In this document: in pieces, positions 7,458 to 46,808 of the stretch
Layout of the letters: every line of letters begins with the position of its first letter
How positions within the stretch are numbered: position 1 is the first letter of the stretch
From: Sinorhizobium alkalisoli
Lineage (GTDB): Bacteria; Pseudomonadota; Alphaproteobacteria; Rhizobiales; Rhizobiaceae
Length of the DNA: 64,000 bases
Assembly: GCF_008932245.1 (NCBI RefSeq)
Contig: NZ_CP034909.1
Span: 1,674,001 to 1,738,000 of the forward strand
Direction: 5' to 3'
The notes under the pieces: model-generated
What the model was told of the DNA's origin: nothing
Seen by the model: the letters and a program-made list of their open reading frames with translations, nothing else
Databases searched by the model: none
Position numbers and translations under genes: made by a program

Positions 7458-8528
7458 ATGCATACGGCAACCTCAAACAGGACGCCGACGCCCGATATTG
7501 CCGCGCAGATCTCCCACGCCATGCGCATGATGGGGGTAGCGCCGATACCGCGCAATTACGAGCTATATTACGAGGCTTATCTCGGCTCGGACCCGCAGCT
7601 TTCCAAGGAACTCGCAGCACTCGGAAGCCGCGCGACGCAGGAGGAACTCGACGCGATCGGAGCCCGGCACTTCAGCCACATCCACCACTCGCGCGGCATC
7701 GAGCGCGCCCACAGCACGATGGTGGCCAAGCTTTCCGAGCTTCTCAACCTCCTCAAGGACGAGCAATACGCGCTCGAGAGCTACAACAAGGTTCTCGATG
7801 AAGCCTATCTCAACATGACGAACAAAAGCGCGGCGAGCGTCGACATCCTGCGTCACGCGATCGGCATCCTCAGCGAGGCGACCGCGGACACCATGAACCA
7901 GGGAAAGGAGCGCGTGCAGAGTGTCGTCCAGAAATCGGTGGAGATGGAGGCGATCCGCCAGGAGCTCGACGAATACAAGCGCATCGCCAACACCGATTCA
8001 CTGACGCGGCTCGCCAATCGGCGCGCCTTCGACGAAAACCTCGCCGCGATTTACAACAGCGAGCACCTGCGCAACTTCACCGGCCTGCTGCTCGCCGACA
8101 TCGACCATTTCAAGAAAATAAACGACAGTTTCGGCCATCCCGTCGGCGACAAGATCCTTGCGACCGTGGCAAACGTCATCCGCGCCAACCTCCGCCGGGA
8201 AGCCTTCGTCGCTCGCACGGGCGGCGAGGAATTCGCGATCATCCTGCGCGACAGCACCCAGGAAGAATGCCTCCAGGCAGCGGACCGGATCCGCACCGTT
8301 CTCTCGAGCGCGCCCTTCAAGAACACCAAGACCGGCGTCAGTTACGGCGCCGTCACCCTCTCCGTCGGAGTCTGCATGGCGACCGCCGCCGACGATCCGG
8401 TCGAGCTCTATAACAAGGCCGACATCGCCCTCTACGCCGCGAAGAATGCCGGCCGCAACCGCACGGTGCTCTTTGAGGAAGGCATGCGCAAGGACGCCGG
8501 CCGCAACTGGCTGATCTATCGACGGTAG
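7458..8528 (+). CDS. GGDEF domain protein, probable diguanylate cyclase
   Basis: The product has 356 residues and no signal peptide or membrane segment. Residues 1-170 are a helical N-terminal region of unknown type. The GGDEF domain follows, starting at DSLTRLANRRAFDEN and with active-site GGEEF at 255-259 and LLADIDHFKKINDSFGH upstream. This should make cyclic di-GMP from two GTP. The I-site that normally reads RxxD five residues before GGEEF reads RREA here, so product inhibition is probably lost. There is no EAL domain. AGGGGG precedes the ATG inside a hairpin. Specific role unknown. Confidence 0.88.
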   Translation: MHTATSNRTPTPDIAAQISHAMRMMGVAPIPRNYELYYEAYLGSDPQLSKELAALGSRATQEELDAIGARHFSHIHHSRGIERAHSTMVAKLSELLNLLKDEQYALESYNKVLDEAYLNMTNKSAASVDILRHAIGILSEATADTMNQGKERVQSVVQKSVEMEAIRQELDEYKRIANTDSLTRLANRRAFDENLAAIYNSEHLRNFTGLLLADIDHFKKINDSFGHPVGDKILATVANVIRANLRREAFVARTGGEEFAIILRDSTQEECLQAADRIRTVLSSAPFKNTKTGVSYGAVTLSVGVCMATAADDPVELYNKADIALYAAKNAGRNRTVLFEEGMRKDAGRNWLIYRR

Positions 8529-33441: not shown

Positions 33442-36400
33442 ATGAACATGGAACTCTCGCGGCGCCAATTTCTCGGCGTGGCCGGTGCTGGAGTAGCGGC
33501 CACGGCGCTTGGTGCCCTTGGCTTTGGTGAAATCGAGGCGGCGCATGCCGAAGCAATCCGCGCCTTCAAACTCGTGAGCACCACGGAAACCCGCAACACA
33601 TGTCCCTATTGTTCCGTCGCATGCGGCGTCATCCTCTATTCGAAGGGCGACCGGAAGAAGGGCGAGCAGGCGGACATCATCCATATCGAGGGCGACACCG
33701 ACCATCCGACGAACCGCGGCACTCTCTGTCCCAAGGGCGCGGCACTGCTCGATTTCGTCAAGTCGGAAACGCGCCTCAGAAATCCGATGATCCGCAAGCC
33801 CGGTTCGGACAGGTTCGAACGGGTCAGTTGGGATGAAGCGCTCGATCGGATCGTCCGGCTGATGAAGGACGACCGCGACGCCAATTTCGTCGAGAGGAAC
33901 GATGCCGGCCAAACAGTGAACCGGTGGCTGACGACCGGTTTCCTGGCGGCTTCCGCCACGACCAACGAGACGGCGTGGGAGACCTACAAGGTCGTCCGCA
34001 GCACCGGGATGCTCGCCTTCGACAACCAAGCGCGTGTCTGACACGGCCCTACGGTAGCCAGTTTGGCTCCAACTTTCGGCCGTGGCGCAATGACCAACTC
34101 CTGGACGGACATCAAGAATACCGACCTCGTGATCATCATGGGCGGTAATGCCGCCGAAGCGCATCCCTGCGGCTTCAAATGGGTGACCGAGGCGAAGGCC
34201 GATCGCGGCGCGAAGCTAATCGTCGTCGATCCACGCTTCACGCGCTCCGCATCGGTGGCCGATCTTTATGCGCCGATCCGCCAGGGCACGGATATCGCCT
34301 TCCTGCTCGGCGTGATCAACCACTGCATTAAGAACGACAAGGTGCAGTGGGACTATGTCAAGGCGTTCACCAATGCCAGCTACATCGTCAAGGACGGTTT
34401 TGAGTACAAGGATGGCCTGTTCACGGGCTATGACGAGGCAAAGCGCGATTACGACAAGTCGACGTGGGACTATGAAATCGGCGACGACGGCTATGCGGTC
34501 GTGGACGATACGTTGACGAATCCACGCTGCGTCTGGAACCTGCTGAAGCAGCATGTCTCGGTCTACACGCCCGAGATGGTGGAGCGGATCTGCGGTACGC
34601 CGCAGGACACGTTCCTGAAGGTGGCCGACATGATCGCCGAGTGCTCATCGCCGACCAAGGCGATGACGTCGATGTATGCGCTCGGCTGGACGCAGCATTC
34701 GAAAGGCTCGCAGAATATCCGCGCGATGGCGATGCTGCAGCTGATCCTCGGCAATATCGGCATACGCGGCGGCGGCATGAATGCGCTGCGCGGCCACTCG
34801 AACATCCAGGGCCTCACCGATGTCGGGCTGATGTCGAACCTGATCCCCGGCTATCTGACGATACCGAACGAGAAGGAGGCCGATTTCGAGACCTACATGT
34901 CGTCACGCGGTTTCAAGCCGCTCAGACCCAACCAGATGAGCTACTGGCAGAACTACAGGAAGTTCTTCGTCAGCTTCCAGAAGGCGATGTGGGGTTCGGC
35001 GGCGACGCCGGAAAACAATTTCGCCTATGATTGGCTGCCGAAGCTCGACGTCTCCGGCTACGACGTTCTGCGTGTCTTCGAGCTCATGAACCAGGGCAAG
35101 GTGAACGGATATATCTGCCAGGGCTTCAACCCGCTGCTTGCGGCCCCGAACCGGAAGAAGCTGACGGACTCGCTGTCGAAGCTCAAATATCTCGTCACGA
35201 TGGATCCGCTCGATACGGAGACGGCGCGGTTCTGGGAGAACCATGGCGAGTTCAACGACGTCGATTCTTCCACGATCCAGACGGAGGTCATCCAATTGCC
35301 CTCCACCTGCTTTGCCGAAGACGAAGGCTCACTCACCAATTCCGGCCGCTGGCTGCAGTGGCATTGGCCGGGCGGCGCGCCTCCCGGCGAGGCAAGAACC
35401 GACAACTGGATCATGGCGCAGATCCATACGCGCCTGAAGGAGCTCTACCGCCAGGAAGGCGGGACCTTCCCCGACCCGATCGTCAATCTCGACTGGGCCT
35501 ATGCGGACCCAGGAGAACCGACTGCGGAAGAGCTTGCCAAGGAGATCAATGGCAAGGCGCTTGCCGCCGTCTACGACACCGCCGACCCGACCAAGGTTTT
35601 GGTGGAGGCCGGCAAGCTCGTGCCCGGTTTCGCGGCCTTGCGCGACGACGGTTCGACCGCCTGCGGCTGCTGGATCTATTCCGGCTGCTTCAACGAGAAC
35701 GGCAACAACATGGCCCGGCGCGACACGTCGGATCCGGACGAGATCGGCGCCTATCCCAAATGGGCGTTCTCGTGGCCCGCCAACCGCCGCATCCTCTACA
35801 ACAGAGCTTCGGCGGACTTGAACGGCAAGCCTTGGGATCCGAGCCGCAAGCTGATCGAATGGGACGGCACGAAATGGACCGGCTACGACGTGCCCGATAT
35901 CGCGCCGACGGCAAATCCCGCGGTGGTCGGGCCGTTCATCATGAATCCGGAAGGTGTCTCGCGTCTCTTCACCCGGGGGCTGATGCGCGACGGTCCGTTC
36001 CCGGCCCATTACGAGCCGTTCGAATCCCCGCTCGGCAATCTCGTCGCCCCGAACGTGCGCGGCAACCCTGCGGCGCGCGTGTTTGCCGGTGATTTCGAGC
36101 AGTTCGCCGAACCGGCCTCTGAGGAGTTCCCCTATGCGGCCACGTCCTACCGCCTGACGGAGCACTTCCACTATTGGACCAAGCATTGCCGGACGAATGC
36201 GGTGCTGCAGCCGGAATTCTTCGTCGAGATTTCCGAACAGCTCGCGGCGGAGAAAGGCATCACTGGCGGCGGCTGGGTGCGCGTCTGGTCCAAGCGCGGA
36301 GAGGTCCGGGCGAAGGCCGTCGTCACCAAGCGGATCAAGCCTCTGATCTGCGACGGCAAACCGATCCATGTCGTCGGCATACCGTTGCACTGGGGCTTCA

Positions 36401-36528
36401 CCGGAGCGGCGAAGAAGGGCTTCGGCCCGAATTCGCTGACGCCGTTCGTCGGCGACGCCAATATCGAGACGCCGGAATACAAGGCGTTCCTGGTCAATAT
36501 CGAGCCCATCGCCGGGCCGGCGGCATGA
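33442..36528 (+). CDS. fdoG: Formate dehydrogenase alpha subunit, selenocysteine-containing
   Basis: This is one reading frame with an in-frame TGA at 34039-34041 decoded as selenocysteine (residue 200 of 1028). The context [16 protein letters not shown] is the invariant active-site sequence of the FdnG/FdoG family. A twin-arginine signal SRRQFLG is at residues 6-12, so the subunit is exported folded to the periplasm. A [4Fe-4S] cluster is bound by C54, C57, C61 and C96. It carries Mo (or W) bis-MGD and oxidises formate to CO2, giving electrons to FdoH. E. coli FdnG is 1015 residues, close to this. ATG 33442 follows GGGGAGG. fdoH starts 13 bases downstream. Automatic callers would split it into two genes. 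Confidence 0.96.
34039..34084 (+). promoter_or_regulatory. Selenocysteine UGA codon with SECIS-like hairpin
   Basis: Just after the TGA, CACGGCC (34042-34048) can pair with GGCCGTG (34078-34084). An inner helix GG-(bulged T55)-AGCC pairs with GGCT-CC (34053-34070), with an apical loop AGTTT containing G61-T62. The bulged U and loop GU match what I recall of the E. coli fdhF element recognised by SelB. Confidence 0.85.
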
Positions 36529-38241: not shown

Positions 38242-38294
38242 AACCGTGAGAATGGGTTCGTATCACGTGGCCCGTGGGGTTCGTGAGGAGTGTG

Positions 38295-39212
38295 ATGAAA
38301 CGCAAAAGCCCTGTCGAACCGGATCCCACCGCGATCGGAGAAGTTTCCTCGCCGCCCCTCGCGCACCTTCCCGACCCCGCTTCGCTCTTCTCCATCCGGG
38401 CCATGCGCCTGCGGCAACTGGCCGAAGCCAGCGACCTCGCCCCTTATCTCCGTTTCCTTGCCGGACTGGCGGACGCCCAGCACCAAATTCAGGCCGAGCT
38501 CCCGCCTCCCGAAAGTCCCAACCCCGCAGTGATCCTGCGCGCCCGCGAATTCGAAATGCCGCCGCTCCACCGCAACGGCATGGAGGGCGACGAGACGGTC
38601 CATGCCATTTTCGACCGTCTGTTCGCCGCCGCTGACGCAATCGACAAGCCGCAGGCCGCCGCCGAGGCGCTTACGCGCGTTGCCGGCGCCGATCCGAAAG
38701 CGCATCTTGCAATGGCGGAAACCGTGCTCTCCGGGGCATTGCCCGCTGACGCGATCGCCGAGCATATTTTCGTCTGGGCAGCGCTTCAGGTGCATTTCGC
38801 CCGCCTCGCCTCGGTTCTCGATGCGGGATCGCTGACGCCGGTCGCCGACGGCATTTGCCCGGTCTGCGGCGGCAGGCCGGCCTCGTCCATGGTGGTCGGC
38901 TGGCCGGGCTCGCATGGCGCACGGTTCTGCTGCTGCTCGCTTTGCTCGACGCTCTGGCACTATGTCCGCATCAAATGCGTACTTTGCGGCTCGACGAAGG
39001 GGATAGGCTACCGGGAGATCGAGAACCACGGCGGCTTCGTCAAGGCCGAGACCTGCGACGAATGCCAGGGATGGACGAAGATCTTCTATCAGAACAAAGC
39101 CCCGGCGGTCGAACCCGTAGCCGACGATGTCGCAAGTCTCGGCCTCGACCTGCTGATGCGCGAAGGCCGCTATCGTCGCGGCGGGTTCGCTCCGCTGCTG
39201 GCCGGCTTCTAA
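38295..39212 (+). CDS. fdhE: Formate dehydrogenase accessory protein FdhE
   Basis: The product has 305 residues, with GAGGAG before ATG 38295; the upstream extension to 38274 is not supported. Four CxxC pairs in the C-terminal half (CPVCGG, CSLCS, CVLCG, CDECQ) form the rubredoxin-like metal sites typical of FdhE, preceded by a helical N-terminal region. FdhE binds the formate dehydrogenase catalytic subunit and is required for its activity in aerobes and facultative anaerobes. It is the bridge between the structural genes and the selenocysteine genes of the same operon. Confidence 0.94.
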   Translation: MKRKSPVEPDPTAIGEVSSPPLAHLPDPASLFSIRAMRLRQLAEASDLAPYLRFLAGLADAQHQIQAELPPPESPNPAVILRAREFEMPPLHRNGMEGDETVHAIFDRLFAAADAIDKPQAAAEALTRVAGADPKAHLAMAETVLSGALPADAIAEHIFVWAALQVHFARLASVLDAGSLTPVADGICPVCGGRPASSMVVGWPGSHGARFCCCSLCSTLWHYVRIKCVLCGSTKGIGYREIENHGGFVKAETCDECQGWTKIFYQNKAPAVEPVADDVASLGLDLLMREGRYRRGGFAPLLAGF

Positions 39213-39262: not shown

Positions 39263-40687
39263 ATGGACGCCAATGTCAGGTTGCGTGACATCCCCTCGGT
39301 GGACGAACTTCTAAGATCGGCCGGCGTCGCCGACGCGGTCGGACGTTTTGGGCGGCCGGTCGTTGCCGCGGCCTTGCGGCGTGTCCTGACCTCCATCCGC
39401 GAGGCGGTGCGGGAAGGCGCGGACATTCCCTCCTCGGCGACCATCGCGGCTGCCGCCGTCGCGGCGCTCAAGGCGAACGAGCGGTCGACGCTTCGCCCAC
39501 TCTTCAATCTGACGGGAACCGTGCTCCACACCAATCTCGGCCGGGCATTGCTGGCAGAAACGGCGATCGATGCCGCGATGGCCGCGATGCGCGAGGCTGT
39601 CGCGCTCGAATTCGACCTTGCGAGCGGCAAGCGCGGCGAAAGGGACGATCACCTGCGCGGGCTCATCTGCGAGCTGACCGGCGCGGAGGATGCGACCGTC
39701 GTCAACAACAATGCCGCCGCGGTGCTGTTGACCCTGAACAGTCTTGCCGCCGGCCGGGAGGCGATCGTCTCCCGCGGCGAGCTCATCGAGATCGGCGGGG
39801 CATTCCGCATGCCGGACATCATGCTGCGCGCCGGCGTGCGCCTCACCGAGGTCGGCACGACCAACCGCACCCATGCCCGGGACTACCGGGACGCCATCGG
39901 CCCGGATACGGGCCTGATCCTGAAGGTCCATACCTCGAACTATCGCATCGAGGGTTTTACGAAAGAAGTCGGCGCACGCGAACTGGCGGCGATCGCCCGC
40001 GACAAGTCCGTGCCGCTCATCAACGACCTCGGTTCGGGCACGCTTGCCGATCTCGAGCACTTCGGGCTCGCGCACGAAACGACCGTCAGGGAGGCTATCA
40101 GCGAGGGCGCCGATATCGTCACTTTTTCCGGCGACAAACTGCTCGGCGGACCGCAGGCGGGATTCATCGTCGGACGCAAGGCTTTGATCGAGAAGATCAA
40201 TGGCAATCCGATGAAGCGCGCGCTCCGGGTCGACAAGATCCGCCTTGCGGCGCTGGAAGCGACGCTCCGGCTCTATCGCGACCCCGACCGGCTCCATGAG
40301 CGCCTGCCGACGATGCGGCTGCTTGCCCGCCCGCAGACCGAGATCAAAGCGCAGGCCGAGCGGCTCGCGCCCCTGGTCGCGCGCGCGACGGGGGGAGCTT
40401 TCGCCGTGTCGGTCGTTGCCTGCGAAAGCCAGATCGGTTCCGGGGCGCTGCCGCTCGCGACCATGCCAAGTGCCGGGCTAGCGCTGACACCGTCTTCGGG
40501 CAGCGGCCGCATGCTTGCAAAGGTGGCGGCGGCGCTCAGGCGCCTGCCGATACCGGTCATCGGCCGCATCGAGCGCGGGTCGCTGATCCTGGACCTGCGC
40601 TGTCTCGAAGACGAGGAAGGCTTCGTCGCCGATCACGCGCATCTCGACATGGCCTGCGAAGGAGGTGCCGATGGCGAGCCTTCTTAA
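39263..40687 (+). CDS. selA: L-seryl-tRNA(Sec) selenium transferase
   Basis: The product has 474 residues, typical of SelA. It converts seryl-tRNA(Sec) to selenocysteinyl-tRNA(Sec) with selenophosphate as donor. [16 protein letters not shown] is the N-terminal core, and the PLP lysine is K292 in [18 protein letters not shown], aligned with E. coli K295. [14 protein letters not shown] provides the Asp of the PLP pocket. GGAGGG precedes ATG 39263. Its last 17 bases overlap the Sel1-repeat gene. Confidence 0.96.
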
Positions 40688-41492
40688 CCGTTTCATGCGC
40701 AACCCGGCCGAGACCGATGCCTCCCGAATGGCCGAGGCGCTCGCCGCCGCGCAGAGGAGCGAATTCGAGTTTGCGCTCGCAATCTGGGAGCCGCTGGCGC
40801 GGGCGGGACACGCCCGCGCCCAGAACAATATCGGCGCATGCTTTGCCGGCGGACTGGGCGTCGTGCGGAACGACAATCTTGCCTATCGCTGGCTGAGCCT
40901 CGCCGCCGAGGCCGGCGATCCGGTCGGCCAGCGCAATCTCGCGACGCTTCTCTTCAAGGGCGAGAGCATAGAGCCGGACTACGAACGGGCGGCCTCCCTT
41001 TACCGCAAGGCTGCCGAACAGGGTGACACCGAGGCCCAGGACATGCTGAGCTGGATGCTGCTCGAGGGCGATCTCATCGAGCCCGATTTTGCGGAAGCGC
41101 GCCGCTGGGCACTCGCAGCCGCGAAGGACGGTCGCGCCGCCTCGATGACGCGGCTCGGCATGCTTTATCACAATGCCGTCGGTGTAGCCCGTGATCCCTT
41201 CGAAGCGGTTCAGTGGTGGCAGCGCGGCGCCTATGCCGGCGATGCCGACGGGCAGGCGATGCTGGGCGCCGCCTATCATCTCGGAAGCGGCGTCGCCCGC
41301 GATCCGGTCGAAGCCTTCGTCTGGCTGACAAGGGCGCGCGCAGGCGGGAGCGCGCTGGCAGCACCCTTCTACGACGCCGTGCGCGCGGCGCTCGATGCGG
41401 ACGAGTTGCAGGAGGCCGAGTGCCGTGCCGCGCTTCCCCTCTCCGAAACGGCCGTGCCCGCTCAGCCCGTCACCACGGGAGATGAACGGTGA
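40671..41492 (+). CDS. Sel1-repeat (TPR-like) protein encoded between selA and selB
   Basis: The product has 273 residues and no signal peptide. Sel1/TPR-like repeats of about 36 residues cover most of it: [80 protein letters not shown] and [18 protein letters not shown]. Such solenoids bind partner proteins. The gene starts inside the last 17 bases of selA (GGAGG in selA) and ends overlapping selB by four (GTGA), so its translation is tightly coupled to both. It is probably involved in Sec incorporation or formate dehydrogenase assembly, but no such function is known to me. A frame six bases longer (GTG 40665) is less likely. Confidence 0.85.
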
Positions 41493-43564
41493 TCGTCGGC
41501 ACCGCCGGGCATATCGATCACGGCAAGACATCGCTCGTCCGGGCGCTGACCGGCGTTGATACCGATCGGCTGAAGGAGGAGAAGAATCGCGGCATCTCGA
41601 TCGATCTCGGCTTTGCCTATCTGCCGATCGATGGGGCGGAAACCATCGGCTTTATCGATGTTCCGGGACACGAGAAATTCATCCACACCATGCTCGCCGG
41701 CGCCAGCGGCATCGATTTCGCCCTGCTGGTGGTCGCGGCCGACGACGGCGTCATGCCCCAAACGCGTGAGCATCTTGCCATCGTCGATCTTCTCGGCATC
41801 GAACGCGGTATCGTTGCCATCGCTAAGGCCGATCTGGTGGCAGAGGATCGCCTCGCGGACGTCGAGGAGGCGATCAGAAACGAGCTCGTTGGCACGGCAC
41901 TCGCCGATGCGCCGATGATCCCGGTTTCGACGGTATCCGGCACGGGCGTGGCGCGGCTTCGCGACGAAATCGTCGCTGAAGTTCGCCGCTTCGCGCGCCG
42001 GCAGACGGCCGGGCGCTTCCGCCTGGCCGTCGATCGCTCCTTCACCATTCAGGGCATAGGTACGGTGGTCACCGGGACCGTTCTTTCGGGGCAGGTATCG
42101 GTGGAGGATCACATCACCGTCAGCCCTTCGGGCCTTCAGGCGCGGGTGCGATCAATCCACGCGCAGAACCGGCCGAGCGAGAACGGCCGCGCCGGTGATC
42201 GCTGCGCCCTCAATCTCGTCGGCCATGGCATTACAAAAACCGCGATCCATCGCGGCGACATGGTCTCAGACCCGAGCCTGCATGCGCCGACGAGCCGCAT
42301 CGATGCGACCTTGCGGGTGCTTGGCTCCGAGCCGAAGCCGATCGGCCACTGGTTTCCGGTGCGGCTTCATCATGCGTCTGCGGAAGTCGGAGCCCGTATC
42401 GTCCTGCTGGCGGAAGAGACGGTGGTGCCGGGAGCGCGGACGCTCGTCCAAATCGTTCTCGACCGACCGATCGCAGCGGCGGCCGGAGACCGCTACGTTA
42501 TCCGCGACACCTCCGCCCAACGCACGATCGGTGGCGGCCGGTTTCTCGACCTGCGCGCACCGGCCCGCAAGCGGCGCACGCCGGAGCGATTGGCGCAACT
42601 TCAAGCGCTCGCGCTGACCGAGCCGAAACAGGCAATCGGGGCCCTGCTTGCCGCTCCGCCCTTCTTTGCCGACATCAGCGCCTTCGCCCGCGACCGGGCG
42701 ATTGCCGCGGCGGAAGCCGACGCACTGGCGCAGACGCTCAACCTGGTGCAACTGCCGTCGGACGCGGCGACGCTTGTCATGTCGATGGAGAGCTGGGAGA
42801 GACTGCGGAGCGATATTCTCGCGCGGCTTGGGGCCTTCCATGTGGAAAATCCGGACCTGGCCGGCATGGGGGTCGAACGGCTGCGCACTGAACTTCCGCT
42901 TCGCCTGCCGGTGACCGCCTTTCGCGCGGCGTTACAGGCTCTCGTCCGGCCGGGTGAAATCGTCCTCGATGGCGCATGGGTCCGGCTGGCGGGCCATCGG
43001 GTGACGATGAGCCTGGCCGATGAGAAACTCTGGAAGGAGATCGAGCCCTTGCTCGGCGGACCCAAGCGCTTCCGCCCGCCGCGCGTGCGCGACATTGCCG
43101 CCCTGCTGGGCGCGCCGGAGGTGCAAGTGCGCCGGCTCATGAAGCTCGGCGGCCGCATGGGCAAGGTGCATGAGGTGGCGCACGACCATTTCTTCTTGCG
43201 CGACACGATCGCGGAAATGGTCGCCATCATCGCCGATATCGGCGAGGCGGCCGACGGCGGCTGGTTCACCGCCATGCAGTTCCGTGATCGCGTCGACAAC
43301 GGCCGCAAGGTCGCCATCCAGATCCTCGACTTCTTCGACCATCACAGCGTGACGCTGCGCCGCGCCGATCTTCGCCGCCTCAATCGCAGCCGTCTGGATT
43401 TCTTCGGCAATTTGTCGAATGCTAGCCGTGGCATTTCAGGAGGAGATTCATGCCCGGTGGCATGTCCGGACTTCAAATCCGGGAGGGGCCGAGAGACGGT
43501 CCTTGGTGGGTTCGACCCCCACTCTCTTCCGCCATTATCGGACGCGACCGGGAGTACCCGTTAG
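41489..43564 (+). CDS. selB: Selenocysteine-specific elongation factor SelB
   Basis: The protein binds GTP, selenocysteinyl-tRNA(Sec) and the SECIS hairpin. The G-domain has GHIDHGKTS (residues 7-15), FIDVPGHEKFIHTML and AKADLV; the C-terminal part, with a run of winged helices, ends with HHSVTLRRADLRRLN. GTG 41489 overlaps the upstream stop as GTGA. The frame is open through the whole tRNA-Sec gene (codon 651 begins at 43439, the first base of the tRNA), ending at TAG 43562-43564 with 691 codons. About the last 41 residues are tRNA-derived sequence. Whether they are translated is uncertain; the normal domain end is near LDFFGNLS. Confidence 0.95.
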   Translation: MIVGTAGHIDHGKTSLVRALTGVDTDRLKEEKNRGISIDLGFAYLPIDGAETIGFIDVPGHEKFIHTMLAGASGIDFALLVVAADDGVMPQTREHLAIVDLLGIERGIVAIAKADLVAEDRLADVEEAIRNELVGTALADAPMIPVSTVSGTGVARLRDEIVAEVRRFARRQTAGRFRLAVDRSFTIQGIGTVVTGTVLSGQVSVEDHITVSPSGLQARVRSIHAQNRPSENGRAGDRCALNLVGHGITKTAIHRGDMVSDPSLHAPTSRIDATLRVLGSEPKPIGHWFPVRLHHASAEVGARIVLLAEETVVPGARTLVQIVLDRPIAAAAGDRYVIRDTSAQRTIGGGRFLDLRAPARKRRTPERLAQLQALALTEPKQAIGALLAAPPFFADISAFARDRAIAAAEADALAQTLNLVQLPSDAATLVMSMESWERLRSDILARLGAFHVENPDLAGMGVERLRTELPLRLPVTAFRAALQALVRPGEIVLDGAWVRLAGHRVTMSLADEKLWKEIEPLLGGPKRFRPPRVRDIAALLGAPEVQVRRLMKLGGRMGKVHEVAHDHFFLRDTIAEMVAIIADIGEAADGGWFTAMQFRDRVDNGRKVAIQILDFFDHHSVTLRRADLRRLNRSRLDFFGNLSNASRGISGGDSCPVACPDFKSGRGRETVLGGFDPHSLPPLSDATGSTR
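43439..43534 (+). tRNA. selC: tRNA-Sec (anticodon TCA)
   Basis: This 96-base tRNA includes the encoded CCA. The 8-base acceptor stem GGAGGAGA/TCTCTTCC has one G-T wobble. The anticodon loop is CTTCAAA with anticodon TCA at 43473-43475, the stem is CCGGA/TCCGG, and a long extra arm and T loop GTTCGAC follow. Discriminator G is at 43531. The long extra arm and 8-base acceptor are hallmarks of tRNA-Sec. It lies entirely inside the selB reading frame, on the same strand. Confidence 0.96.
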
Positions 43565-43777
43565 AGCCAGTGTCGGCGCGGCCAGTCTGCAGCTAGGTGT
43601 TCCTGCGGTCGATCCATGTGCCGGATTTCTCTTGGTCCGAGATCGGTTGTCGGGAGAGGCGCCGGTCGTTCGTCCTCCGGATGCAAAGCGCAAATATTGG
43701 AGACAGGCCATGACAGGGATTACCGCTGACACCCAAGTCGCGCCGTACGGCGCCCTGCCATCACCCGGAGCTTTCCG
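43565..43777. other. Region after selB, with a short ORF
   Basis: Between the selB stop and the GST start lie 213 bases. The only coding sign is the 23-codon ORF at 43710-43781, listed separately. No terminator hairpin for the selenium operon was found here. Confidence 0.35.
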
Positions 43778-43781
43778 ATGA
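43710..43781 (+). CDS. 23-residue leader peptide coupled to the GST gene
   Basis: The short ORF reads MTGITADTQVAPYGALPSPG then AFR and stop. GGAG (43699-43702) stands 7 bases before its ATG. Its stop overlaps the GST start as ATGA, so ribosomes finishing the peptide could restart on the GST gene. Sequence has no recognised family. Coding is suggested only by the ribosome binding site and the overlap. Confidence 0.35.
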   Translation: MTGITADTQVAPYGALPSPGAFR

Positions 43782-44428
43782 CCCCAACCATTACCGCCTT
43801 TGAACGCTCGCCCGATGGCGGCAAGGGTTTGGCACGTGACATGCGGGTTCGCTGGGCGCTCGAAGAGGTGGGACGGCCCTACGACGTCCGTCTTCTTTCT
43901 TTCAAAGCGATGAAGGAACCCGCGCATCTCGCGCTTCACCCTTTCGGACAGATTCCGACCTACGAAGAAGGCGACCTCGCCCTGTTCGAGTCGGGAGCGA
44001 TCGTCTTCCATATCGCGGAGCGCCATGCGGGACTGCTGCCGGACGATGCGAATGCCCGGGCGCGTGCGATCGCGTGGATGTTTGCCGCGCTCAACACCGT
44101 GGAGCCGCCGATCTTCGACCGCGCCCTTGCCAGGATCCTCGAGCGCAACGAGCCTTGGTACGAACAGCGCCTGCGTACCCTTGAGGCCAGCATTCGGAAA
44201 CGGCTGGACGGCCTTTCGAGCCGACTTGGCGATGCCGACTGGCTCGAAGGCGAATTCAGCGCCGGTGATCTTCTGATGGTGACGGTGCTGCTCAGGTTGA
44301 AAGGATCGGCTCTACTGGACGAATATCCGAACCTTACGGCCTATGTCGCCCGCGGCGAAGCGCGGCCTGCATTCAAGCGTGCTTTCGACGCGCAGTTGGC
44401 GGTTTTCACCGCCGCATCGACCGCTTGA
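43778..44428 (+). CDS. Glutathione S-transferase family protein
   Basis: The product has 216 residues. The thioredoxin-like N-terminal domain ends with FGQIPTYEEGDLALFESGAIVFHI, containing the cis-Pro and the ESGAI glutathione-binding segment. The helical C-terminal domain follows, with GEFSAGDLLMVTVLLRL as the conserved N-capping box. Substrate is unknown; the family covers detoxification and stress roles. GGAG precedes the ATG. It stands apart from the selenium operon and converges on the OmpA-domain gene. Confidence 0.88.
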   Translation: MTPTITAFERSPDGGKGLARDMRVRWALEEVGRPYDVRLLSFKAMKEPAHLALHPFGQIPTYEEGDLALFESGAIVFHIAERHAGLLPDDANARARAIAWMFAALNTVEPPIFDRALARILERNEPWYEQRLRTLEASIRKRLDGLSSRLGDADWLEGEFSAGDLLMVTVLLRLKGSALLDEYPNLTAYVARGEARPAFKRAFDAQLAVFTAASTA

Positions 44429-44520
44429 GAAGGCCCCTCAGGGCTCGATCGGCACACTCCGCAACCGTATGCCCGAAGTCAGGATGCTCTCGACCGTCTT
44501 CTGCATCCATTCCGCCGACA

Positions 44521-44564
44521 GCGTAGAGGCCCCAAAATCGGAACCGATCTTGGGGCCTCTATGC
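44521..44564. repeat. Twenty-base hairpin between convergent GST and OmpA-domain genes
   Basis: TAGAGGCCCCAA (44524-44535) pairs with TTGGGGCCTCTA (44550-44561), extended outward by GC pairs and inward by ATCG/CGAT after one A-C mismatch, with loop GAAC. Total about 20 base pairs. It lies where the left palindrome of a RIME would be, since the RIME right half follows directly. Confidence 0.7.
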
Positions 44565-44585
44565 AGAGTCTGCGGCACGTCTTTA

Positions 44586-44621
44586 CCCTTGAACCGAGCT
44601 CGATCAAAGGAGACATGCAGC
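44586..44621 (+). repeat. RIME-type right half
   Basis: CCTTGAACCGAGCTCGATCA, then AAGGAGACATGCAG, resembles the second half of the RIME right palindrome. It stops four bases from the OmpA-domain gene stop. The left half is replaced by the unrelated hairpin at 44521-44564. Confidence 0.6.
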
Positions 44622-44624
44622 GGC

Positions 44625-46808
44625 TTATCGTTGCGCCACCGGGCGTACGAGAGGCGTCACGCGCCGAATGGTGACGCGGCGGTTTTCCTGCTCCGCCTCC
44701 TGTGTGCGGATCTTGAGGAAGCGCTCGCCATAGCCCTGTGTCACCAGGTTTTCCGGCGCGATCCCGTAGACCTCGGAGAGCAGCGTGGCGACCGAATCGG
44801 CGCGCTTGTCCGACAGGAGCAGGTTCGAGCGGTCGGAACCGACGGCATCCGTATGGCCCTCGATGAAGAAGGTTTCGCCCGGGTCCCTCTCGAGGATTTT
44901 CGCCATCGCGTCGGCGACCCTGCGCAATGTCTTTGCCTGCGACATCGACACCTCGGCACTGCCCGTCGCAAAGGTGATGGTGTCGAGATCGACGCGACGA
45001 ACCTTGTCCCGAAGGCGGGCGGAATGGCGGACCTCGTCCATCGTGTAGACGCGCTCGACGCGCTCGACCGGCGGTTCGGACAGGAACTCGTAATAGTCGC
45101 GGTCCGGTTCTTCGGCGTAATCGACAATGTAGTCGTCCACCGGTATCGTCAGCCGCATCGGTGGCAGCTCATAGCCCACGTCGACGATCGCCGGCCGCCG
45201 GCGCTCTTCATATTCCGGCGCATAGATCAGTACATAATCGTTGCCGTCGCGATCGATGCGCGTGCGCTGCAGAATGTCGCCGTAACGGTTGTAGATGGTG
45301 ACGACACGGTAGCCGTCCGGGCGCACGATGGTCTCGCGGTAGCGACCGCGCGGCAGTTCCTCGTAGAAGGTCTCTTCCGCGTCACGCCGCAGGCGTGGTC
45401 GGTCGTCGCCCCGCACGAAGATGCGGTCGCCGGCCTCGAGGATGACGCGGTTCTCGGTCTCTTCGACCACCCGCACCTCGGTGACATTGTTGGTCGTCGT
45501 ATTGTTGACGGTCGTGTTGTTGATCACCGTATTGTTGACCATGGTATTGTTGACGATGTTCGTCGTTTCCGGAACGGCGAATGTGGGAGCTGCCTCGACC
45601 CGCTGCCCCTCTTCGCTGAGCGCCGCCTCCACCTTCTGCGGCAGTCCTTCCGTGAACTCGGCCGGAATTTCCGCCTGCGCGGCGGCATCGTCGGCAGGCG
45701 GCGCTACAATCTCCTCCTTCGCTCGTAGCTCTTCCCGCTGTTGACGCCGGAGTTCGCGCGACCGGTTGCCGCCGGCATTGTCGGCATCCTTGTCGCTGTC
45801 GAGCACGGCCGCACCACCTTCGACGGGGAGTACGACTGTCTCATCGCTGGCCGCCGGGTCCTCGGCGATCTTCTGCTTCTCTTCTACCGTGCGCTCGTCG
45901 ACGACTTCCGGAGCCGGCTGGCCTTCAGGCTGTTCAGCCTGCATCTGCTCCGCTGTTGCAGGCTCTTCACCTTCCGGAACCGGCTGCTGCTCGGCCTCGC
46001 CGGTCTGCTCGGCGGGCTCTTCGGCTGGCGGCTGTTCGGCGGTCGTCTTGTCCTCGGTTGCAGCAGGTGGCTCTTCCGCGGTCTGTTCTTCTTCAGCCTG
46101 GCGCTGCTGTTCTTCCTCGGCGGCGCGCTGCTGTTCTTCCTCGGCGGCACGCTGCTGCTCTTCCTCAGCCGCACGCTGTTTTTCTTCCTCAGCCGCACGC
46201 TGCTGCTCTTCCTCAGCCGCACGCTGCTGCTCTTCCTCGGCAGCCCGCTGCTTTTCTTCCTCGGCAGCACGCTGCTGCTCTTCCTCGGCAGCCCGCTGCT
46301 TGTCTTCCTCCGCCGCACGCTGCTGCTCTTCCTCGGCAGCCCGCTGCTTTTCTTCCTCAGCCGCACGCTGCTGCTCTTCCTCGGCAGCGCGTTGCTTTTC
46401 TTCCTCAGCCGCACGCTGCTGCTCTTCCTCGGCAGCCCGCTGCTTTTCTTCCTCGGCAGCACGTTGCTGCTCTTCCTCGGCAGCCCGCTGCTTTTCTTCC
46501 TCGGCAGCGCGTTGCTGCTCTTCCTCGGCAGCCCGCTGCTTTTCTTCCTCCGCCGCACGCTGCTGCTCTTCCTCGGCAGCCCGCTGCTTTTCTTCCTCGG
46601 CAGCACGTTGCTGCTCTTCCTCGGCCTTGCGCTGCTCTTGCTCGCGCTTCTTCAGGAGCAGCAGCTCTTCGGGCGACAACTCCTCGCCGCCTTCCTGCGC
46701 CACTTCGAACGGCGCCTTCAGGCTGTCGGCCAACGCCGGTTGAACTGCAAGGGACGCCGCGAAAACCGGCAGGGCGACCGTTGCGAAAAGTTTCGATCGA
46801 ATCGTCAT
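44625..46808 (-). CDS. Large OmpA-domain protein with octapeptide repeat region
   Basis: The protein has 727 residues with a signal peptide (MTIRSKLFATVALPVF ... ALADS, about 28). Residues 69-236 are 21 tandem copies of AAEEE(K/Q)QR, alternating K and Q through most of the run, followed by an acidic Pro/Glu-rich stretch. A segment with repeated NNTxV units (TTNIVNNTMVNNTVINNTTV) follows near residue 420. The C-terminal part is an OmpA peptidoglycan-binding domain: TITFATGSAEVS ... FFIEGHTDAVGSDRSNLLLSDKRADSV ... QGYGERF. It probably ties the outer membrane or periplasm to the cell wall, with a long rigid helical spacer. The repeat period of eight does not fit a heptad coiled coil. No gene symbol is justified. 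Confidence 0.88.
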   Translation of the reverse strand: MTIRSKLFATVALPVFAASLAVQPALADSLKAPFEVAQEGGEELSPEELLLLKKREQEQRKAEEEQQRAAEEEKQRAAEEEQQRAAEEEKQRAAEEEQQRAAEEEKQRAAEEEQQRAAEEEKQRAAEEEQQRAAEEEKQRAAEEEQQRAAEEEKQRAAEEEQQRAAEEDKQRAAEEEQQRAAEEEKQRAAEEEQQRAAEEEQQRAAEEEKQRAAEEEQQRAAEEEQQRAAEEEQQRQAEEEQTAEEPPAATEDKTTAEQPPAEEPAEQTGEAEQQPVPEGEEPATAEQMQAEQPEGQPAPEVVDERTVEEKQKIAEDPAASDETVVLPVEGGAAVLDSDKDADNAGGNRSRELRRQQREELRAKEEIVAPPADDAAAQAEIPAEFTEGLPQKVEAALSEEGQRVEAAPTFAVPETTNIVNNTMVNNTVINNTTVNNTTTNNVTEVRVVEETENRVILEAGDRIFVRGDDRPRLRRDAEETFYEELPRGRYRETIVRPDGYRVVTIYNRYGDILQRTRIDRDGNDYVLIYAPEYEERRRPAIVDVGYELPPMRLTIPVDDYIVDYAEEPDRDYYEFLSEPPVERVERVYTMDEVRHSARLRDKVRRVDLDTITFATGSAEVSMSQAKTLRRVADAMAKILERDPGETFFIEGHTDAVGSDRSNLLLSDKRADSVATLLSEVYGIAPENLVTQGYGERFLKIRTQEAEQENRRVTIRRVTPLVRPVAQR
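46101..46604 (-). repeat. In-gene tandem repeat, 21 units of 24 bases
   Basis: The DNA consists of 24-base units coding AAEEE(K/Q)QR; alternating units give a 48-base higher-order period. Copies are nearly identical on the coding strand, so slippage could change copy number between strains. Long plus-strand open frames opposite this region are by-products of the repeat. Confidence 0.85.

Follow-up and report, generated by a model that had tools for sequence, protein, structure and literature searches.

A selB reading frame kept open through the tRNA-Sec gene in Sinorhizobium alkalisoli and its relatives

Comparison of selB loci in which the reading frame runs on through the gene for tRNA-Sec (selC) reveals that the frame, the phase in which it meets the tRNA and a stop codon shortly beyond it are conserved, also where no downstream gene is recognised at that stop, and that the encoded peptide is nearly free to vary. 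Since the frame is kept and the residues largely are not, it seems from the sequences to be the reading through that is conserved rather than the peptide. In GC-rich DNA, a frame that stays open for about 50 codons is nothing unusual in itself; the argument is a comparative one, resting on phase and stop position kept across relatives.

The layout and the leading hypothesis for it are already published, and the comparisons of phase, stop and peptide are what is new here. The first-pass annotation of this DNA took the arrangement to be undescribed, in which it was mistaken: nesting of selC in selB in diverse Alphaproteobacteria has been described as the first case of a tRNA nested in a protein gene of bacteria, common but dispensable, together with the same proposal that tRNA processing by RNase P yields a nonstop selB mRNA and a balance between SelB and tRNA-Sec (Mukai 2021, Int J Mol Sci 22:4605, PMC8124441). 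That paper does not report testing whether the frame is conserved or the peptide constrained. Passages in two reviews (PMC9312934, PMC13188914) repeat the nonstop model as a proposal, and a search of the open-licence literature by title and abstract found no experimental test of the nested selB–selC model.

The window, the whole stretch of 64,000 nucleotides that was analysed, contains the following features.

34036–34094, + strand: SECIS_3 element of the formate dehydrogenase alpha gene of the same cluster (RF01989, 81.3 bits)
38274–39212, + strand: fdhE (PF04216, PF24859, PF24860)
39263–40687, + strand: selA (PF03841)
40665–41492, + strand: Sel1-repeat open reading frame (PF08238), its stop overlapping the selB start
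41489–43408, + strand: selB, SelB core (codons 1–640), matched by TIGR00475 over residues 1–631 and by SelB-wing_3 to residue 631; its GTG overlaps the stop of the upstream Sel1-repeat frame
43409–43438, + strand: in-frame linker of 10 codons from the SelB core to the tRNA (gap of 30 nt)
43439–43534, + strand: selC, tRNA-Sec, 96 nt with CCA (RF01852, ARAGORN), with the D-arm CATGCC/GGCATG at 43449–43465
43535–43564, + strand: last 9 codons of the selB frame and TAG, the stop lying at +123 from the tRNA start, as in the related loci L010, L011 and L116

The selB frame extends from the GTG at 41489 to the TAG at 43562–43564, 691 codons with no internal stop (translation of window positions 41489–43564), and its product is a genuine SelB, TIGR00475 scoring 408 bits over residues 1–631. 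The last recognised domain, SelB-wing_3, ends 19 residues before the tRNA; the tail, counted from codon 640, consists of the 10-codon linker, 32 tRNA-coded codons and 9 further codons. Rfam model RF01852 places tRNA-Sec at 43439–43530 on the + strand with 73.7 bits against a cut-off of 47, and the encoded GCCA reaches 43534, giving a gene of 96 nt, or 32 codons. The model exceeds its cut-off once in the whole genome, with seven weaker matches below it. ARAGORN calls the tRNA at 43438–43534, one base longer at the 5′ end; because of the 8-bp acceptor GGAGGAGA/TCTCTTCC, the mature 5′ end is set at 43439. This bears out the earlier observation that the frame enters the tRNA at codon 651 on its first base, codon 651 being the GGA at 43439, with (43439 − 41489)/3 equal to exactly 650, and the tRNA being read as codons 651–682. 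The frame also ends, as had been noted, at the TAG past the CCA, and 27 bases lie between the final A of the CCA and that stop. This tRNA gene is open in all three frames.

It is very unlikely that a sequencing frameshift caused the overlap: the relative L010, which is 91% identical, shares the frame and has an identical distance from tRNA start to stop. In a predicted RNA fold of 43399–43574, the tRNA arms are present in both the minimum-energy and the centroid structures, and the segment is not more stable than shuffled sequence (z −1.13). The surrounding cluster matches the fdoGHI–selAB layout: SECIS_3 element, molybdopterin oxidoreductase, Fe–S subunit, cytochrome b561-type subunit, FdhE, SelA, Sel1-repeat frame and SelB. 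The formate dehydrogenase alpha gene has at 34039 an in-frame stop with HGPTVAS after it, as would be expected if the codon specifies Sec, and a Molybdopterin match (PF00384) lies within 34063–36528. Downstream, a glutathione S-transferase-like gene starts 213 nt beyond the selB stop. A 120-codon frame in another phase (43419–43781), which begins within selB and spans the tRNA, terminates on the ATG of this gene; it is probably a chance occurrence.

For the comparison, selB loci were drawn from named genome contigs (49 loci), from surveys of the genus, family, order and class, each a sample of at most 30 loci among the matches listed, from regions fetched by place and from plasmid records. Removal of duplicates and of hits short of residue 600 left 152 rows, and 147 distinct loci were kept, a set that leaves out the re-fetched loci from L199 on and SelB stretches of fewer than 400 residues. 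Among the matches listed, the selB frame reads through the entire tRNA in phase 0 at 56 of the 147 loci, for which a gap that is a multiple of 3 is given by the class definition, and in phase 2 at a single locus. The frame stops inside the tRNA at five loci and before it at 53, and in the remaining 32 ARAGORN found no tRNA-Sec within the fetched stretch. Comparison of the junctions in relatives, suggested with the original observation, does recover the open frame and its phase through the whole tRNA in 56 of 147 loci. A stop before the tRNA in close relatives, which had been named as evidence against the arrangement, was encountered in part: it is present in three loci of the same genus, L040, L128 and L123, with spacers of 121–140 nt, and absent from L010, whose frame is that of the window. 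Since some close relatives stop before the tRNA, the trait is common but dispensable. With equal weight on both kinds of event, the SelB tree needs eight losses and eight gains of nesting; should nesting be older and its gain less frequent, more losses by stop codon took place than we counted, over a longer nested history. The one phase-2 case among the 57 full overlaps, L193 (G241), has as its tree neighbour L191, whose frame runs into the tRNA in the same register and meets a stop there; the phase-2 read-through possibly has an independent origin.

Changes in linker length were counted on one FastTree SelB tree, close relatives included, with the anticodon as the reference point for the spacer. 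In the 62 loci with a selB frame that enters the tRNA there have been at least 26 such changes, three of them frame-changing, against 15 of 29 in the 40 separated loci with gaps below 150 nt (Fisher p = 0.0018 for 3/26 versus 15/29). An earlier count from ARAGORN starts gave 3/27 versus 17/30 (p = 3.5e-4); the contrast holds but is weaker from the anticodon, the recount having moved the tRNA start of L047 by 3 nt, taken L191 from phase 1 to phase 2 and shifted 17 separated loci. The start of the tRNA on a codon boundary, first remarked on in the window, is kept in 59 of the 62. The class definition does not in itself impose phase 0, because in most nested loci the tRNA is open in other frames as well, stops being found in phase 1 at 7/56 and in phase 2 at 9/56. 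We take these counts as support for selection having kept the frame. The absence of phase-0 stops inside the tRNA was dropped as a further line of support: with SelB identity of at least 52%, such stops occur in 3/32 separated and 3/59 nested loci (p = 0.66), which is not significant among these closer relatives; in all separated loci they number 14/53 (p = 0.003).

The position of the stop beyond the tRNA is equally regular. In the selB phase a stop is met 6–35 nt past the tRNA at 55 of the 56 full-overlap loci, compared with 6/56 and 3/56 in the other two phases of the same loci and with 23% of the 159 frames (all phases) in the 53 separated loci. Of these comparisons, that with the separated loci is the fairer, because the other phases of nested loci often include downstream genes. 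At the linker's own rate, and without constraint, 11 in-frame stop gains would be expected over the nested branches in the linker and 17 in the linker and tRNA together; the branches of the tree show two or three losses by stop. The Poisson probability of three or fewer is 0.004 for the linker and 4e-5 for linker plus tRNA, both rough values, and with rarer gains of nesting the observed and expected numbers would both rise. These results bear on the simplest account of the overlap, that an ancestral selB stop was lost in front of a tRNA that happens to be open, with no selection involved. Although many loci have a tRNA without a stop in any of the three frames and the trait has repeatedly been lost, as such an accident would allow, we consider it distinctly unlikely, given the few frame-altering changes in linker length, the shortage of stop gains and the clustering of stops just past the tRNA in the selB phase only.

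The constraint on the tail was estimated as dN/dS from 23 disjoint pairs of nested loci, 14 of which served for the post-tRNA part. The last 100 codons of the core give 0.14. The linker gives 0.84 in the selB frame (bootstrap 0.62–1.10) and 1.06 and 0.61 in the control frames, a measure that is noisy as well as high, because the selB frame is no lower than frame 2 (0.61). Within the tRNA the values are 0.76 for the selB frame and 0.86 and 1.25 for the control frames; beyond it they are 0.61 (0.35–1.10) against 1.48 and 1.90, which leaves room for some constraint in the post-tRNA part. Entropy by codon position, computed over the tRNA, failed to distinguish nested from separated genes: in both groups position 2 varied least. 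The possibility that the tRNA-coded tail is functional in SelB, for example in binding tRNA or mRNA, so that the overlap exists to supply a peptide, would account for the kept frame and phase and for the close similarity within the tRNA across species. That similarity is, however, largely due to the tRNA itself, the difference of 0.76 from 0.86 and 1.25 being small; the linker is near neutral; the 53 loci that stop before the tRNA have no tRNA-coded tail; and three tail residues are not the same in the window as in L010, owing to the difference in the D-arm. A functional peptide as the main reason for the overlap is made less likely by the near-neutral dN/dS, and we regard it as improbable.

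A second role for the distal stop has been put forward, namely translational coupling, in which ribosomes must reach the stop past the tRNA in order to start ORF1 or ORF2 overlapping it (Mukai 2021, PMC8124441). These genes were recognised by a rule of our own (a C-terminus ending in DF at 120 residues or more, or TDFD near the N-terminus), and at 27 of the 56 full-overlap loci a gene of ORF1 type (20) or ORF2 type (7) starts at the selB stop. The 29 loci without a recognised one, the window among them, nevertheless keep the frame: their 11 or 12 linker-length changes (corrected or uncorrected L047 start) are all multiples of 3, and with the frame-shifted relative L067 added there are 13, one of them frame-changing. 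The stop lies 6–35 nt past the tRNA in 28 of the 29. This class is not pure, because 7/29 have some start codon on the selB stop, and the loss of ORF1/ORF2 in L058 and L116 may be recent. In the window, no start codon overlaps the TAG, and one ORF1 query, run without a positive control, gave no match in the window's own genome. A tblastn search of 43401–46000 with 30 ORFs (at least 60 codons, starting at a selB stop) gave no match below 0.05 other than one at E 8e-4 on the opposite strand, which was treated as chance; there is thus no clear relic downstream. Coupling as the sole reason for the overlap was rejected in view of the 29/56 loci, and as the explanation for the conserved frame and stop we consider it rather unlikely.

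The published model (Mukai 2021, PMC8124441) would make of selB and selC one bifunctional stretch of RNA. A ribosome finishing SelB would have to read the tRNA sequence and would terminate shortly beyond it; were the tRNA to fold first, RNase P and 3′ nucleases would excise it, leaving a selB message without a stop that would be lost by trans-translation or decay. Each transcript covering both genes would then give finished SelB or tRNA-Sec, never both, and the proportion between them would be held. The shared transcript, the competition between ribosome and RNase P and the loss of the cut message are steps that we infer from the sequences. Such alternative fates, with frame and stop kept while the peptide is nearly free, offer what we regard as the best explanation, in which our confidence is a little short of even. 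In its favour we count that the genome holds no second tRNA-Sec above the cut-off and that neither a sigma-70-like promoter nor a terminator-like site was found in 42900–43900, a weak test in Alphaproteobacteria. Against it we count that 53/147 loci stop before the tRNA and that conservation of phase is not required, or predicted, by nonstop-mRNA decay alone; a phase on the codon boundary would be better explained by the need to meet a stop just past the tRNA.

The link between the two genes can also be observed in its broken state, in eight loci with parted selB and tRNA-Sec (pSymA of S. meliloti, G071, G070, G189, G274, G098, G246 and G016). In the first four, tRNA sequence is retained at the selB end as far as position 40, where the anticodon loop ends, and all four diverge from there at one and the same base. 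The match runs to position 52 in G274, and G098, G246 and G016 have no clear tRNA remnant directly after selB, G016 having a 5′ half with the same break farther on (L018, L203). A phage-integrase-family gene (PF00589) ends 68–77 nt before the complete tRNA in G016, G070 and G189 (L204, L205, L207); that of G189 is in two pieces, and G016 carries a phage portal gene. The complete displaced tRNA-Sec of pSymA lies at 7717–7812 of L133, and the G071 locus is L199. The common break at position 40 points to site-specific integration by an element bringing a new 5′ half. Around selB and tRNA-Sec in pSymA, G071, G274, G098 and G246, the stretches examined contain no relative of the G016/G070/G189 integrase, and an element was presumably inserted in these as well. 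The split on pSymA has been ascribed to a transposon (Mukai 2021, PMC8124441), whereas the break at position 40 suggests site-specific integration. In a viral contig (L209, IMG/VR), a 5′ half of tRNA-Sec at about 58–97 likewise breaks off at that base, and the integrase encoded by the contig shares about 32% identity with the one in G016. No paper on integration at selC in rhizobia was found by title and abstract.

Integrating elements thus appear to undo the selB–selC link, and the loci that they have split may be viewed as its natural knock-outs. The displaced copies (pSymA, G071, G189 and others), being outside selB, must be transcribed in another way, which lends something to the idea that the nested tRNA is made independently from a promoter of its own inside selB, with the overlap reflecting no more than compactness. 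We nevertheless judge this highly improbable: no sigma-70-like site was seen in 42900–43900, for what that is worth in this class, and the conservation of frame and stop would be left unexplained.

The tRNA-Sec of the window itself carries a mark of the displaced type. Its D-arm, CATGCC/GGCATG, as an exact 32-base pattern, occurs in 6 of 394 genomes of the family, and in the other five the tRNA is away from selB or on another contig; the same D-arm is present in pSymA and L075, both displaced. Among the 62 frame-entering loci it is found in the window only, and among 44 separated loci with spacers below 300 nt in none. Five bases distinguish the D-arm of the window from that of L010, with all D-stem pairs kept, and three tail residues change as a result. 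Because the acceptor and 3′ half resemble those of nested relatives and the D-arm is of the displaced type, a mosaic is likely. We prefer exchange with an element-borne copy as the probable source of the D-arm; independent compensatory change is the alternative. In viral_contigs, the exact 30-base pattern of the displaced-type D-arm gave no match, and the 5′ half with the common D-arm gave one (L209).

Overall, we tentatively propose, with a confidence well below even, that translation through the tRNA and the near stop are selected and the resulting peptide is not, that a zone of competition between ribosome and RNase P sets the ratio of SelB to tRNA-Sec, that elements entering at the anticodon loop break the link, and that the tRNA of the window is a survivor or mosaic that has kept the frame. 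If the model of alternative fates is true, a single RNA fixes how much of an elongation factor is made relative to its sole cargo tRNA, with no separate regulator. The comparison sharpens the published idea, in that translation through the tRNA and the point at which it ends would matter, and the sequence of the tail would not.

Compared with the loci described by Mukai 2021 (PMC8124441), the window is alike in having the entire 96-nt tRNA-Sec within the selB frame, in direct orientation and in the same phase, with the tRNA part starting on Gly (GGA) and ending on Pro (CCA), and in its fdoGHI–selABC cluster. As in that description, the tRNA length is a multiple of 3 (mostly 96 or 93 nt there) and GGA stands at tRNA position 1. 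Unlike many of those loci, the window has as its selB stop a TAG without an overlapping start, and neither ORF1 nor ORF2 was found beside it, an overlap that the description treats as optional; it differs further in its D-arm of the displaced-copy type. A likeness outside bacteria, cited in PMC8124441, is found in the mitochondrion of Armadillidium vulgare, whose cox1 contains a nested tRNA-Lys; there the tRNA likewise lies in a coding sequence in the same direction and the products compete for one RNA. It is unlike selB–selC, as far as that citation goes, in belonging to a compact mitochondrial genome and in having a partner gene unrelated to tRNA function.

The rhizobial elements resemble the enterobacterial selC islands in that the tRNA-Sec gene is the attachment site. 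In enterobacteria, selC is an integration site of genomic islands, tRNA-Sec serving as an attachment site for tyrosine recombinases. The rhizobial elements differ in that their shared break comes after tRNA position 40, where the anticodon loop ends, in that selC is parted from selB, and in that the distal end carries a 5′ half unlike the one left at selB.
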